This document shows positions 35,251 through 40,464 of a stretch of DNA of 53,421 nucleotides, one piece after another; the stretch's first letter is position 1; every line of letters begins with the position of its first letter. Position numbers and translations under genes: made by a program. The DNA comes from Armatimonadota bacterium (GTDB taxonomy: Bacteria; Armatimonadota; Zipacnadia; Zipacnadales; UBA11051): assembly GCA_013178155.1 (NCBI GenBank), contig JABLXH010000024.1, positions 1 to 53,421 of the forward strand. The letters run 5' to 3'. The notes beneath the pieces are model-generated. The model was given only the letters and a program-made list of their open reading frames with translations, did not search any database and had not been told where the DNA came from.

Positions 35251-35279
35251 TTGACAGGCCGGGCGTTTGGGCCTAACAT
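35251..35279 (+). promoter_or_regulatory. trpS: Sigma-70 promoter of the trpS leader
   Basis: TTGACA (35251-35256), a 17-base spacer and TAACAT (35274-35279). The -35 box is perfect. Transcription would start near 35286, about 15 bases before the leader peptide start. Confidence 0.78.
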
Positions 35280-35301
35280 ACGGCGCAACAGGTAATCAGG
35301 C

Positions 35302-35355
35302 ATGTTGGTGACACAGGTGGTATTCAGCTTTTGGGCGTGGCGTGAGTTCGCATAA
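35302..35355 (+). CDS. Tryptophan leader peptide (17 aa)
   Basis: ATG at 35302 to TAA at 35353-35355 encodes MLVTQVVFSFWAWREFA with Trp codons at 35332 and 35338 separated by one Ala codon. The start lies near AGGTAATCAGG, a weak ribosome site. Two Trp in 17 residues right after a good promoter and before an intrinsic terminator is the classical layout of a ribosome-mediated attenuator. The peptide itself is probably without function beyond sensing charged tRNA-Trp. Confidence 0.8.
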   Translation: MLVTQVVFSFWAWREFA

Positions 35356-35443
35356 CCTGCGGGCGCCCGCTGTGCTGACCACCAGTTAGCCAACCAGAAG
35401 CAAAGAACCAGCCGTGGGCCCCGCAGAGGGTTCACGGTTTTTT
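35333..35443 (+). promoter_or_regulatory. trpS: Tryptophan attenuator: competing RNA hairpins in trpS leader
   Basis: Region 1 GGGCG (35333-35337, over the Trp codons) can pair with CGCCC (35364-35368). Region 2 TGCGGG plus CCC (35358-35370) can pair with 35414-35425 (GGG and CCCGCA), which covers most of the 5' arm of the terminator (35412-35421). A ribosome stalled at the Trp codons would cover region 1 and leave region 2 free to form the antiterminator. With enough charged tRNA-Trp, region 1 and 2 could pair and the terminator form. The pairings are read by eye. Confidence 0.72.
35412..35443 (+). terminator. Intrinsic terminator of the trpS attenuator
   Basis: CCGTGGGCCC (35412-35421) pairs with GGGTTCACGG (35428-35437), including two G-U pairs, over a 6-base loop, followed by six T (35438-35443). 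It is the only terminator in the window with a full T tract and it lies upstream of a gene, not behind one. Confidence 0.85.
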
Positions 35444-35515: not shown

Positions 35516-36481
35516 ATGGTAGTCCTATCTGGTATCCAACCCACGGGCCGTCTGCACATCGGCAACTACTTCGGAGCGATCCGGCAGTACATCGAGCTGC
35601 AGGACAGGCCCGACCATCAGTGCTACTACTTCCTGGCCAACTACCATGCCCTGACGACCATCCACGACGGGGCGGCACTGCGACAGCAGACGTTGGACGC
35701 CGCCACGGACCTCCTGGCGCTGGGCCTGGACCCGACCAAGGCGCTGCTTTTCCGCCAGTCAGACGTCCCGGAGGTCTGCGAGCTGGCCTGGATCCTGAGC
35801 TGTCACACGCCAATGGGGCTGCTGGAGCGTTGCCACGCCTATAAGGACAAGGTCGCCCAGGGCCTGCCCGCGGACCACGGGCTGTTCGCCTACCCGGTGC
35901 TCATGGCGGCCGACATCGTTATCTACAACGCCAACCTGGTGCCGGTGGGACAGGACCAGAAACAGCATGTGGAGGTCACTCAAGACCTGGCCCAGCGGCT
36001 CAACCACCGCTATGGCGAGGTCCTGACTGTCCCTGAGCCCTACATCGTGGAGAGCACAGCGGTGGTACCGGGAGTTGATGGGCGGAAGATGTCCAAGAGC
36101 TATGACAACACCATCGGCATGTTTGAGCCCGAGAACGTCGTAAAGAAGAAGATCATGGGGATTGTCACGGACTCCACGCCGGTCGAGGCGCCCAAGGACC
36201 CGGAAAACAACACGGTTTACCAGCTCTACAAGCTGTTCGCCACACCTGAGCAGGCCGCGGCCATGCGCGACAGCTTCCTGGCCGGCGGGACCGGCTACGG
36301 CGAATACAAGAAACAGCTTCTGGCTGCCTTTCTGGAATACTTCGGTCCGGCCAGGGAACGCCGGACGCGGTACGAGGCTGACATGAGCTACGTGCAGGAT
36401 GTGTTGGCGGAGGGCGCACGGCAGGCCCGGGCCGTGGCCCGGGAGACACTGGACCGGGTACGGGCGGCAGTAGGCATCTAG
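35516..36481 (+). CDS. trpS: Tryptophanyl-tRNA synthetase
   Basis: The 321-aa product is a class I synthetase of usual TrpRS length, with the HIGH-like motif HIGN (14-17) in GRLHIGNYFGAI and the KMSKS loop in GRKMSKSYDNT. PVGQDQKQHVE is the conserved segment before it. It charges tRNA-Trp. The ATG at 35516 follows GGAG with 7-base spacing; the frame upstream runs into the leader terminator and is not used. It is controlled by the leader described above and followed, after 345 bases, by trpE. Confidence 0.96.
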   Translation: MVVLSGIQPTGRLHIGNYFGAIRQYIELQDRPDHQCYYFLANYHALTTIHDGAALRQQTLDAATDLLALGLDPTKALLFRQSDVPEVCELAWILSCHTPMGLLERCHAYKDKVAQGLPADHGLFAYPVLMAADIVIYNANLVPVGQDQKQHVEVTQDLAQRLNHRYGEVLTVPEPYIVESTAVVPGVDGRKMSKSYDNTIGMFEPENVVKKKIMGIVTDSTPVEAPKDPENNTVYQLYKLFATPEQAAAMRDSFLAGGTGYGEYKKQLLAAFLEYFGPARERRTRYEADMSYVQDVLAEGARQARAVARETLDRVRAAVGI

Positions 36482-36620
36482 AAACCGCGACCATTGGGAC
36501 GGGCACTCCCGCCGGCGCTGGGTGTGCAGACAGCAGTGTGCCCGCCACCGGTTACCGGTCCAGGCCAGAGGCGGAGGGGCATTGGGGACGACGGCGGGCG
36601 GAGACTTGCCACCAACGAGA

Positions 36621-36643
36621 CCCCCGGCCGGAGCAGCCGGGGG
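36621..36643 (+). terminator. Stem-loop after trpS without T tract
   Basis: CCCCCGGC (36621-36628) pairs perfectly with GCCGGGGG (36636-36643) over a 7-base loop. It could end part of the trpS transcripts. Confidence 0.45.
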
Positions 36644-36689
36644 GCGGAGCTCGCGGAGTTCCGCGCCTCGACGAAAGAGGGTGATGCTC

Positions 36690-36779
36690 ATGGCAGAACA
36701 GACGCTCTGCCGGGCCTTCGGGGCCCGGTCAGTCGCCCGTTTGTCCCAGGGCTGGGCCTGCCTCGGGCGTTGCGTGTGA
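36690..36779 (+). CDS. Possible 29-aa small protein or leader peptide before trpE
   Basis: ATG at 36690 (another in frame at 36684) stands behind AGAGGGTG at proper spacing and reads a 29-aa, Cys/Arg-rich peptide ending LSQGWACLGRCV, with one Trp codon near its end (36753). It ends 47 bases before trpE. The good ribosome site makes translation plausible, but with a single Trp it is not a clear tryptophan sensor. Confidence 0.4.
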   Translation: MAEQTLCRAFGARSVARLSQGWACLGRCV

Positions 36780-36826
36780 GCCCATGTTGGGGCCGGCCCA
36801 AAGCCGTCCCGGGAACGAGGTGAGGC

Positions 36827-38329
36827 ATGTACACACCGGACTTCGAGACTTTCCTGCAGCGTGCCCAGCACGGGAACCTCATTCCCGTCTACCGCGAGAT
36901 TCTGGCTGACCTGGAGACTCCGGTCTCAGCCTACCTCAAGCTCGAGCAGATCAGTGACGGCTATTCCTTCCTACTGGAGAGCGTGGCCGGCGGCGAGAAC
37001 GTGGCCCGGTACTCCTATCTGGCCTGCAGCCCCAGCCGGTTATTCAGCAGCAAGGGCCGCGAGGTCACCATCCGCCGAGGCAGCGATACACAGACCATCG
37101 TCTTGCCGGAGGACGAAGACCCCCTCGATGAGCTGAAGCGCCAGTTGGCCGCCTACCGGTTCGTCCCTCTGCCGGACTGGGAACGGTTCTCGGGCGGCGC
37201 GGTAGGTTACCTCAGCTATGACATGGTTCGCTTCTTTGAGGACCTGCCGGACGAAAACCCTGACGACCTGGGCCTCCCCGAGAGCCAGTTCATGTTCGCC
37301 GATACGCTGGTCGTCTTTGACCATGTGCGCCACCGCGTGCGGATTATGGCGATGGCCGCGGTGGGCGAGGATCCGCAGGCAGCCTATTGGGAGGCCGTTG
37401 GTCGCATAGACCGTATGGTGGACGTGCTCACCGGCCCCATGCCGCAGTCACCGGCCCGCCCGCCGAGCCCGGCGACCATCCCCGATGACCCGGCCGGGCT
37501 GCCCTCCACCATGACCCGGGCGCAGCACCGGGAGGCGGTGCTGAAGGCAAAGGAGTACATCGCCGCCGGGGATGCCATTCAGATCGTGCTGGCTCATCGT
37601 CTGCAGGCGCAGATCAAGGTGGCGCCCTTCGACCTGTACCGCGCCCTGCGGGCCATCAACCCGTCCCCGTACATGTACTATCTGAGCTTCGGCGACCTGA
37701 AGATCATCGGCGCCTCGCCGGAGATTCTCGTCACCGAAGACGCCGGCCGTGTCGTGACTCGTCCCATCGCTGGCACGCGGCGGCGGGGGAAAACCCGGGA
37801 GGAGGACCTGGCCCTGGAGCAGGAGCTTCTGGCCGATGAGAAGGAGCGCGCCGAGCACATCATGCTGGTAGACCTGCACCGCAACGACATCGGTCGTGTC
37901 TGCGAGCCGGGCACCGTGCAGGTGGACGCGCTGATGACCGTGGAGCGCTACTCCCACGTGATGCACATCGTGTCCAACGTGGTGGGCAAGCTGGCCGCCG
38001 ACAAGGACCAGTTCGACGTCCTGCGCGCCACCTTCCCGGCGGGGACGGTCTCCGGGGCGCCAAAGATCCGGGCCATGGAGATCATTGAGGAGCTGGAGCC
38101 GGTGCGCCGCGGGCCTTACGCCGGGGCGGTGGGCTACTTCAGCTTCTCCGGCAGCATGGACACCTGTATCACCCTGCGGACGCTCGTGGTGAAGGGCAAC
38201 ACGGTCTACTTCCAGGCCGGCGGCGGCATCGTGGCGGACAGCGATCCGGATGCGGAGTACCAGGAGACGTTGCACAAGATGGGGGCACTGCTGGACGCCG
38301 TGCGCATGGCAGAGCGGGGGTTGGTGTAG
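36827..38329 (+). CDS. trpE: Anthranilate synthase component I
   Basis: The 500-aa product has the N-terminal feedback site motif LLES (in [11 protein letters not shown]) that binds tryptophan, and the chorismate-binding core: [60 protein letters not shown] and [17 protein letters not shown]. With the TrpG glutaminase it turns chorismate to anthranilate. Length and motifs favour TrpE over PabB, supported by trpD and trpS nearby. The ATG lies behind GAGGTGAGG. Confidence 0.94.
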
Positions 38330-38433: not shown

Positions 38434-39003
38434 ATGCTCATCCTGCTCGACAACTACGACAGCTTCACCTACAACCTGTACCAGTACCTCTCGGAACTGG
38501 GCGAACAGGTCGTCGTCTACCGCAATGACAAGATCACAGTGGAAGAGGTCGAGCGTCTCCAGCCCGACCGCGTGGTCATCTCGCCCGGCCCGTGCACACC
38601 CGATGAGGCCGGCATCTCCATGGCGCTCATCCGGCATATGGCCGGCAGGGTCCCGGTGTTGGGCGTCTGCCTGGGCCATCAGGCCCTGGGGCAAGTGTTC
38701 GGTGGGAAGGTGGTGCGGGCGGGACGCCTGATGCACGGCAAGACCTCCCCTATCTATCACGATGGCAAGGGGCTCTTCGTCGGTCTGCCCAATCCCTTTG
38801 AGGCGGTGCGATATCATTCCCTCCTGGTGGAGAAGGAAAGCCTCCCTGACTGCCTGGAGATCACCGCCGAGAGCGACCAGGGGGAGATCATGGGCCTCCG
38901 TCATCGGGAGTATGTGGTAGAGGGGATACAGTTCCACCCGGAGTCCATCATGACCGCGGTGGGCAAGGACCTGCTGCGGAACTTCCTGCGGATGACCGTG
39001 TAG
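38434..39003 (+). CDS. trpG: Anthranilate synthase component II, glutamine amidotransferase
   Basis: The 189-aa product is a class I glutaminase with catalytic C79 (LGVCLGHQ) and H168/E170 (QFHPES). [15 protein letters not shown] at the start is typical of TrpG/PabA. It supplies ammonia to TrpE and may also serve p-aminobenzoate synthesis, as no separate pabA is seen here. The ATG follows CAGGAG 9 bases upstream; about 100 bases separate it from trpE. Confidence 0.94.
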
Positions 39004-39387: not shown

Positions 39388-39447
39388 TGTTTCCCTTTGC
39401 CTGGCACAGAGCCGGGCGAAACGCCAGATAGATCGGGGGCGCAGCCC

Positions 39448-40464
39448 ATGTTGCAGGCGGCGCTGGGTAAGCTTGTTGCTCGCCAGCACCTGACGGCCGA
39501 CGAGGCCGCGGACGTGCTGGGACACGTCATGTCCGGTCAAGCCACGGAGGCGCAGATCGGCGCGCTGCTGGTGGCCTTGCGGATGAAGGGCGAGACCGCT
39601 GAAGAGATCGCCGGGTTTGCCCGGGCCATGCGCGCCCACTGCGTGCGGGTGGAGACGGATGTGCCGGGCCTCGTAGACCCAGTGGGCACGGGGGGCGACC
39701 AGGCCCACACCTTCAACATCTCCACCGCCGCCGCCTTTGTGGCCGCGGGGGCGGGCGTGCCGATCGCCAAGCACGGCAACCGCGCCATGTCCAGTCAGTG
39801 CGGCAGCGCTGATGTGCTTACCGCTCTTGGCGTGGAGATCTCGCTCTCGCCGGAGGCGGTGGCCCGCTGCATCCGGGAGGTGGGCATCGGTTTCATGTTC
39901 GCGCAACGGCTGCACCCGGCGATGAAGTATGCCGCCGGCCCCCGGCGCGAACTGGCGATGCGTACGATCTTCAACCTCCTCGGGCCGCTGACCAATCCGG
40001 CCGGAGCCAAGCGCCAGGTCATCGGCGTCTTTGACCCGCATTTCGCTCCGCTGATGGCCGAGGCCCTCCGCACCGAGGGTTCGGAGCACGTGCTGGTGGT
40101 CCATGGTCTCGTGGGACTGGATGAGATCGCCCTGACGGGGCCGACGCTGGTGACGGAACTGCGCGAGGGTGTCATCCGGGAGTATCAGCTTACCGCCGCC
40201 GACCTGGACCTGCCCGAGGGGCGCCTGGAGGACATCAGTGGTGGCGATCCGGAGACCTCGGCGCGGATGCTGCGCGAAGTCCTGGAAGGGCAGCCTGGCC
40301 CCCGCCGCGACATCGTGGTCGCCAATGCGGCGGCCGCCATCTATGTCGGCGGCAAGGCGTCTGACCTCCGGGCTGGCGTGACCCTGGCTCAGGAATCACT
40401 GGACAGCGGGGCAGCGGCCGCGAAGCTGGAGGCGTTGGTCGCCCTGTCCCGGGAGCTGGCGTGA
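39448..40464 (+). CDS. trpD: Anthranilate phosphoribosyltransferase
   Basis: The 338-aa product has the PRPP/anthranilate motifs VGTGGDQAHTFNIST, KHGNRAMSSQCGSADVL and RTIFNLLGPLTNPA. It links anthranilate to PRPP. The ATG at 39448 matches the family's N-terminus (LQAALGKLVARQHL); the frame upstream adds an unlikely segment. trpC, trpF, trpB and trpA do not follow, so the remaining pathway genes lie elsewhere. Its stop overlaps the queH start. Confidence 0.95.
   Translation: MLQAALGKLVARQHLTADEAADVLGHVMSGQATEAQIGALLVALRMKGETAEEIAGFARAMRAHCVRVETDVPGLVDPVGTGGDQAHTFNISTAAAFVAAGAGVPIAKHGNRAMSSQCGSADVLTALGVEISLSPEAVARCIREVGIGFMFAQRLHPAMKYAAGPRRELAMRTIFNLLGPLTNPAGAKRQVIGVFDPHFAPLMAEALRTEGSEHVLVVHGLVGLDEIALTGPTLVTELREGVIREYQLTAADLDLPEGRLEDISGGDPETSARMLREVLEGQPGPRRDIVVANAAAAIYVGGKASDLRAGVTLAQESLDSGAAAAKLEALVALSRELA

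Follow-up and report, generated by a model that had tools for sequence, protein, structure and literature searches.

A predicted ribosome-mediated tryptophan attenuator upstream of trpS in Armatimonadota

The window, the whole 53,421-nt stretch of DNA analyzed here, comes from an Armatimonadota bacterium and carries the tryptophanyl-tRNA synthetase (TrpRS) gene trpS followed by trpE, trpG and trpD; a queH-like gene also lies downstream beside these three (Pfam). Armatimonadota is a phylum mostly known from uncultured genomes. The window trpS looks like the sole clear TrpRS of its genome; a second, weak match (34% identity, E 3.5e-6) may represent a related synthetase. A sequence-only reading of this DNA had described a promoter, a 17-codon peptide with Trp-Ala-Trp and a terminator with six T residues in front of trpS, and all three are present where it had placed them (Table 1).

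Table 1. Features of the trpS leader and the genes that follow it in the window
Feature	Position	Strand	Basis or remark
Sigma-70-like promoter, TTGACA-17 nt-TAACAT	35251-35279	+	-35 at 35251-35256, -10 at 35274-35279
Leader peptide MLVTQVVFSFWAWREFA (then stop), 17 codons	ORF 35302-35355	+	Sequence; orthologous leaders in relatives
Region 1, control codons UGG GCG UGG	35332-35340	+	Sequence
Region 2, CUGCGGGCGCCCGC	35357-35370	+	Folding, covariation; partner is region 1 or the terminator 5' arm plus loop
Intrinsic terminator (regions 3 and 4), six T	35410-35443	+	Scan, folding
trpS, tryptophanyl-tRNA synthetase	35516-36481	+	Start is ATG 35516
trpE	36827-38329	+	Pfam; same order in the nearest relative (G001)
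trpG	38434-39003	+	Pfam GATase
trpD	39397-40464	+	Pfam Glycos_transf_3

The promoter matches the consensus at 10 of 12 positions in a consensus scan, and comparable promoters are also found 5' of the leaders of relatives. The -10 element lies 22 nt from the leader ATG, and the Shine-Dalgarno site of the peptide is weak. Two Trp codons (35332-35334 and 35338-35340) give the WAW of the peptide. The intrinsic terminator sits between the leader ORF and trpS, with its stem at 35410-35439 and its T run at 35438-35443, and the leader as a whole has a folding z of -2.75. Within region 2, positions 35358-35370 (TGCGGGCGCCCGC) are complementary to both GGGCG at 35333-35337 and GTGGGCCCCGCA at 35414-35425. 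The alternative pairing proposed earlier for this segment holds for both partners but needed amendment at the second, where the terminator loop is used as well as the arm.

TrpS is present in 60 of 61 related genomes, and in the class it falls into two types (57-77% versus about 40-44% identity). Relatives that carry names belong to Candidatus Zipacnadia, with one record named Armatimonadia; the earlier description of the genome as Armatimonadota-like agrees with the several relatives of the window trpS that are named Candidatus Zipacnadia. The same leader layout is found in 16 of the 20 class genomes with window-type trpS, the orthologous upstream regions of 15 other genomes sharing peptide geometry, pairing and terminator with the window. 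All 16 leader peptides end in W-x-W-R, WWR or a near variant. In the relatives region 2 comes just after the Trp codons and is followed by the terminator, and a conserved CCGUGGGC core is present in the terminator 5' arm of most trpS leaders. From the second Trp codon to the end of the stop codon the distance is 15-21 nt in 15 leaders; in the remaining one, G004, it is 42 nt, and the leader peptide there extends through region 2. The leaders of G043 and G044 were found by eye; their T tails are poor, and neither of the covariance models described below detected them. No such leader was found at the window-type trpS of four genomes (G003, G013, G041 and G045). G042, G043 and G044 each possess two TrpRS genes of different type, and in all three the leader is on the window-type copy.

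The antiterminator pairing was examined by a covariation test on a 12-sequence alignment, in which region 2 was compared with the terminator 5' arm and loop. Nine doubly changed cells were found versus 3.4 in shuffled data (a count not reached in any of 500 shuffles), and a shift of the partners by 1-3 columns lowered the paired cells from 86% to 30-47%. When the pairing of each region 2 with its own terminator was compared with its pairing to foreign terminators, none of 200,000 permutations was as good for 16 leaders, and z was -9.7 for 54 leaders. Restricted to the 9 nt that follow the invariant arm, the same comparison gave 0.0008, and 0.014 on 11 representatives. There is no evident reason other than pairing for the terminator-loop bases to match region 2. 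Both the Trp codons and the pairing are kept in relatives, the opposite of the lack of conservation that the sequence-only reading had named as refuting it.

Folding the leader with and without a ribosome in place, a check of the kind proposed in the sequence-only reading, gave a switch in one setting and none in the other. In prefix folding, which considers transcripts ending before the terminator 3' arm, region 2 pairs with a share of 0.00 of the window's 5' arm and loop when the ribosome is absent, 0.76 when it is stalled at Trp and 0.37 when it is at the stop codon; the means of 16 leaders were 0.26, 0.64 and 0.28, respectively. The modeled order is the one expected for a classical attenuator. 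In equilibrium folding of the full-length window leader the terminator was favored (0.94) in every ribosome state and no switch was seen, and only 4 of the 16 leaders (L005, L009, L011 and L018) also switch at equilibrium. Since the window terminator dominates in every equilibrium state, the switch must be kinetic in the window, being decided during transcription.

The window leader is very probably a ribosome-mediated transcription attenuator of the classical trp type. The sequence features of such attenuators are found together here: near-tandem Trp codons in a short ORF, a terminator, a covarying antiterminator and pathway genes downstream. Points against this reading are the equilibrium folding of the window leader, the four window-type trpS genes with no such leader, the irregular leaders of G004, G043 and G044, and the weak Shine-Dalgarno site. 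RNA polymerase would start near 35286, and a ribosome would begin the 17-codon peptide at once. When tRNA-Trp is charged, the ribosome would reach the stop codon and region 2 would be masked or folded on region 1; the terminator would then form and transcription would end near 35443. When charged tRNA-Trp is scarce, the ribosome would stall on UGG-GCG-UGG and leave region 2 free to pair with the 5' arm and loop of the terminator; transcription would then run into trpS. Antitermination would probably also carry transcription into trpE-trpG-trpD. Translation of the peptide and stalling within it would in this way set the efficiency of termination and give the response to tryptophan.

The distribution of these leaders was followed with two covariance models. 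The first was built from the 12 trpS leaders only and was run on 46 class genomes and 291 phylum genomes; its matches were not confined to the window type of trpS but included leaders with Trp-rich peptides in front of trpE, trpB1, trpB2 and a further trpS type. The second was built from 51 leaders, partly from genomes that it then finds, and at a cut-off of E <= 0.003 it gave 72 matches in 56 of the 291 Armatimonadota genomes. Although the second model was trained in part on its target genomes, the finding across different genes had already been made by the first, from trpS leaders alone. Tryptophan or aromatic-pathway genes follow 66 of the 70 second-model matches that could be assessed. Window-type trpS accounts for 15 of the 72 matches, another trpS with trpE behind it for 7, another trpS with no trpE seen within about 3.5 kb for 3, trpE for 28 (that of L177 by reading a truncated frame), trpB1 for 3, trpB2 for 6, operons with trpE further downstream for 3 (G028, G013 and G024) and a DAHP synthase gene, identified by reading the sequence, for 1; two matches lie at contig ends and in four no trp gene or Trp peptide was seen. 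These last four (G023:C806, G284:C27, G030:C113 and G246:C333) were rejected, as was a first-model match without a Trp peptide (G031:C9). A trpS-attenuator candidate from a mechanical scan of a Desulfocapsa MAG (L101) was also set aside; by the authors' own reading it is the end of an upstream gene, a DnaK-like C-terminus, followed by a terminator.

The operons of G028 and G013 are led by a Gfo/Idh/MocA-like gene. In G013 trpE and trpG are found further on; trpE itself was seen only in this genome, and its presence in the G028 operon is inferred from the similar first gene. The Trp attenuators before the Gfo/Idh/MocA-like oxidoreductase gene in these two genomes (L141, L144 and L203) have peptides with ...FAWWWYR or ...FAWWWCR, and the one before the DAHP synthase-like gene (L231, at G063:C749) has a peptide with YWAWRFY.

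A control set consisted of 40 genomes outside the class, reached through relatives of the window trpS. There the first model at E <= 0.05 gave two matches, one of which, in Akkermansia, is a chance match that lies, by the authors' own reading, inside an ATPase-like coding frame and is without a Trp peptide. The second model at E <= 0.003 gave three, and two of these precede trpE (in an Armatimonadetes MAG and an Actinomycetota MAG). L219, a trpE leader in an Actinomycetota MAG that was picked up by the Armatimonadota model, has WWRW and a strong terminator.

The sequence-only reading had also raised the possibility that the attenuator feeds into trpEGD, and gene order and attenuator placement support this well. 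The order attenuator-trpS-trpE-trpG-trpD is found in the window genome (G000) and in its nearest relative (G001), and attenuator-trpS-trpE recurs in seven further genomes outside the class, with other TrpS types. It is nevertheless conceivable, if unlikely, that the attenuator governs trpS alone and that trpE-trpG-trpD use their own promoter in the gap behind trpS. The gap is long (345 nt in the window and roughly 650 nt in G001), which would suit a separate promoter, but a consensus scan of its + strand showed nothing resembling a promoter or a terminator; the crudeness of the promoter consensus leaves room for a promoter. Further evidence against a separate promoter comes from the placement of attenuators. 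No separate attenuator was found on trpE in G000 or G001, where trpE is linked to trpS, whereas the sister genus, in which trpE was not seen beside trpS in the stretches read (G002 and G004), has an attenuator on trpE itself. The seven further genomes with attenuator-trpS-trpE, whose TrpS is of other types, also speak against it. Because of the gene order, the attenuator placement and the lack of a site seen in the trpS-trpE gap, read-through from the attenuator into trpEGD is likely on the sequence evidence, and trpE is probably in the same transcription unit as trpS. The gap (36482-36826) contains a short ORF with GWAC and no terminator; this ORF is possibly a remnant of a former trpE leader. 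In G000 and G001 one other attenuator was found in each, on trpB. That of the window genome (L163, G000:C2:70936-71048) has the peptide MTAQRFGFWWWRRTLT.

A further alternative to a ribosome-mediated attenuator is a leader that binds tRNA, such as a T-box, or one that binds a protein. T-boxes are common in the class, with matches in 44 of the 46 genomes, and four lie elsewhere in the window genome (G000:C112, C142, C159 and C29). However, the T-box model (RF00230) has no match at the window trpS leader, and among the T-box matches listed none is at the trpS locus of G000. The window leader is also unmatched by the Rfam Trp_leader family (RF00513) at the gathering score. None of the Rfam families, T-box included, matched the window and the other trpS and trp leaders tested at that score, and permissive thresholds gave nothing useful. 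What is conserved is instead a short ORF whose in-frame Trp codons keep a fixed distance from its stop, and TrpR, the Trp repressor, has a match in none of the 46 class genomes. On the conserved codons and the Rfam and TrpR searches, a T-box or binding leader is very improbable. Least credible of all is an ordinary terminator beside a chance WAW ORF in GC-rich DNA: a simple scan does find three terminator-like sites where 2.3 are expected, but conservation, covariation, the specificity of the models for trp genes and the near absence of matches in the 40 control genomes stand against it.

The leader peptides tend to begin close to their promoters. In the 48 leaders whose promoter match was good, the distance from the -10 end to the leader ATG has a median of 13 nt and is exactly 9 nt in 13. 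Transcription usually starts 6-7 nt from the -10 element, so many of these peptides would have 5' untranslated regions of a few bases. It is tentatively suggested, with confidence a little short of even, that tryptophan control in Armatimonadota uses one type of attenuator. Near-leaderless Trp-rich peptides would precede trpS, trpE, trpB, the DAHP synthase gene and the oxidoreductase operon; a common cassette would have been reused on unrelated TrpRS types and kept on tryptophan genes even though the same genomes use T-boxes elsewhere.

In the E. coli trp leader (trpL), the Trp codons come shortly before the stop, with the spacing WWR-x-x-stop. The same spacing is found in L019. Like E. coli trpL, the Armatimonadota leaders have alternative 1:2, 2:3 and 3:4 pairings and a U-tract terminator; unlike it, they control trpS, trpE or trpB, separately or together, and match no Rfam family. 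An attenuator has been predicted for trpS2 of Streptomyces avermitilis (PMC1262725), and in Streptomyces lividans trpL2 (MMTRTCTQLWRAA) has been mapped by RNA-seq before trpS (PMC8079986). The Streptomyces arrangement (trpRS1/trpL2) resembles that of the window in having a peptide with one or more Trp codons and alternative hairpins before a TrpRS gene. In S. lividans, trpL2 contains a single Trp codon and lacks a U tract, and trpS is monocistronic (PMC8079986); in the window, one codon separates the two Trp codons, a U tract is present and trpEGD follows trpS. Leaderless trp leaders have also been reported in S. lividans (PMC8079986). An experimental study of S. coelicolor trpS (Vecchione and Sello 2010, cited as reference 57 in PMC4787780) concerns, by its title, an auxiliary, antibiotic-resistant TrpRS; the window trpS is the only clear TrpRS of its genome. 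The E. coli pheST attenuator (pheM), named as a precedent in PMC1262725, likewise places a ribosome-mediated attenuator on an aminoacyl-tRNA synthetase operon, for another amino acid and in another phylum.

Since trpS attenuators have been predicted and mapped in Streptomyces, this kind of control is already known; the idea of trp leader logic on a synthetase gene is upheld, and its novelty is smaller than first supposed. No earlier report of attenuation in Armatimonadota was found in a search limited to open-licence papers. What this analysis adds is a phylum, a regulon, a target that appears to be its genome's only TrpRS, and the linkage to trpEGD. Ribosome-mediated tryptophan attenuation is thereby extended to Armatimonadota, and two covariance models now predict tryptophan-responsive genes in the phylum, where leader-peptide attenuators and T-boxes stand side by side in the same genomes. 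In the window genome, the charging of tRNA-Trp appears to govern the one clear TrpRS that performs it, and the gene for this enzyme is linked to trpEGD.
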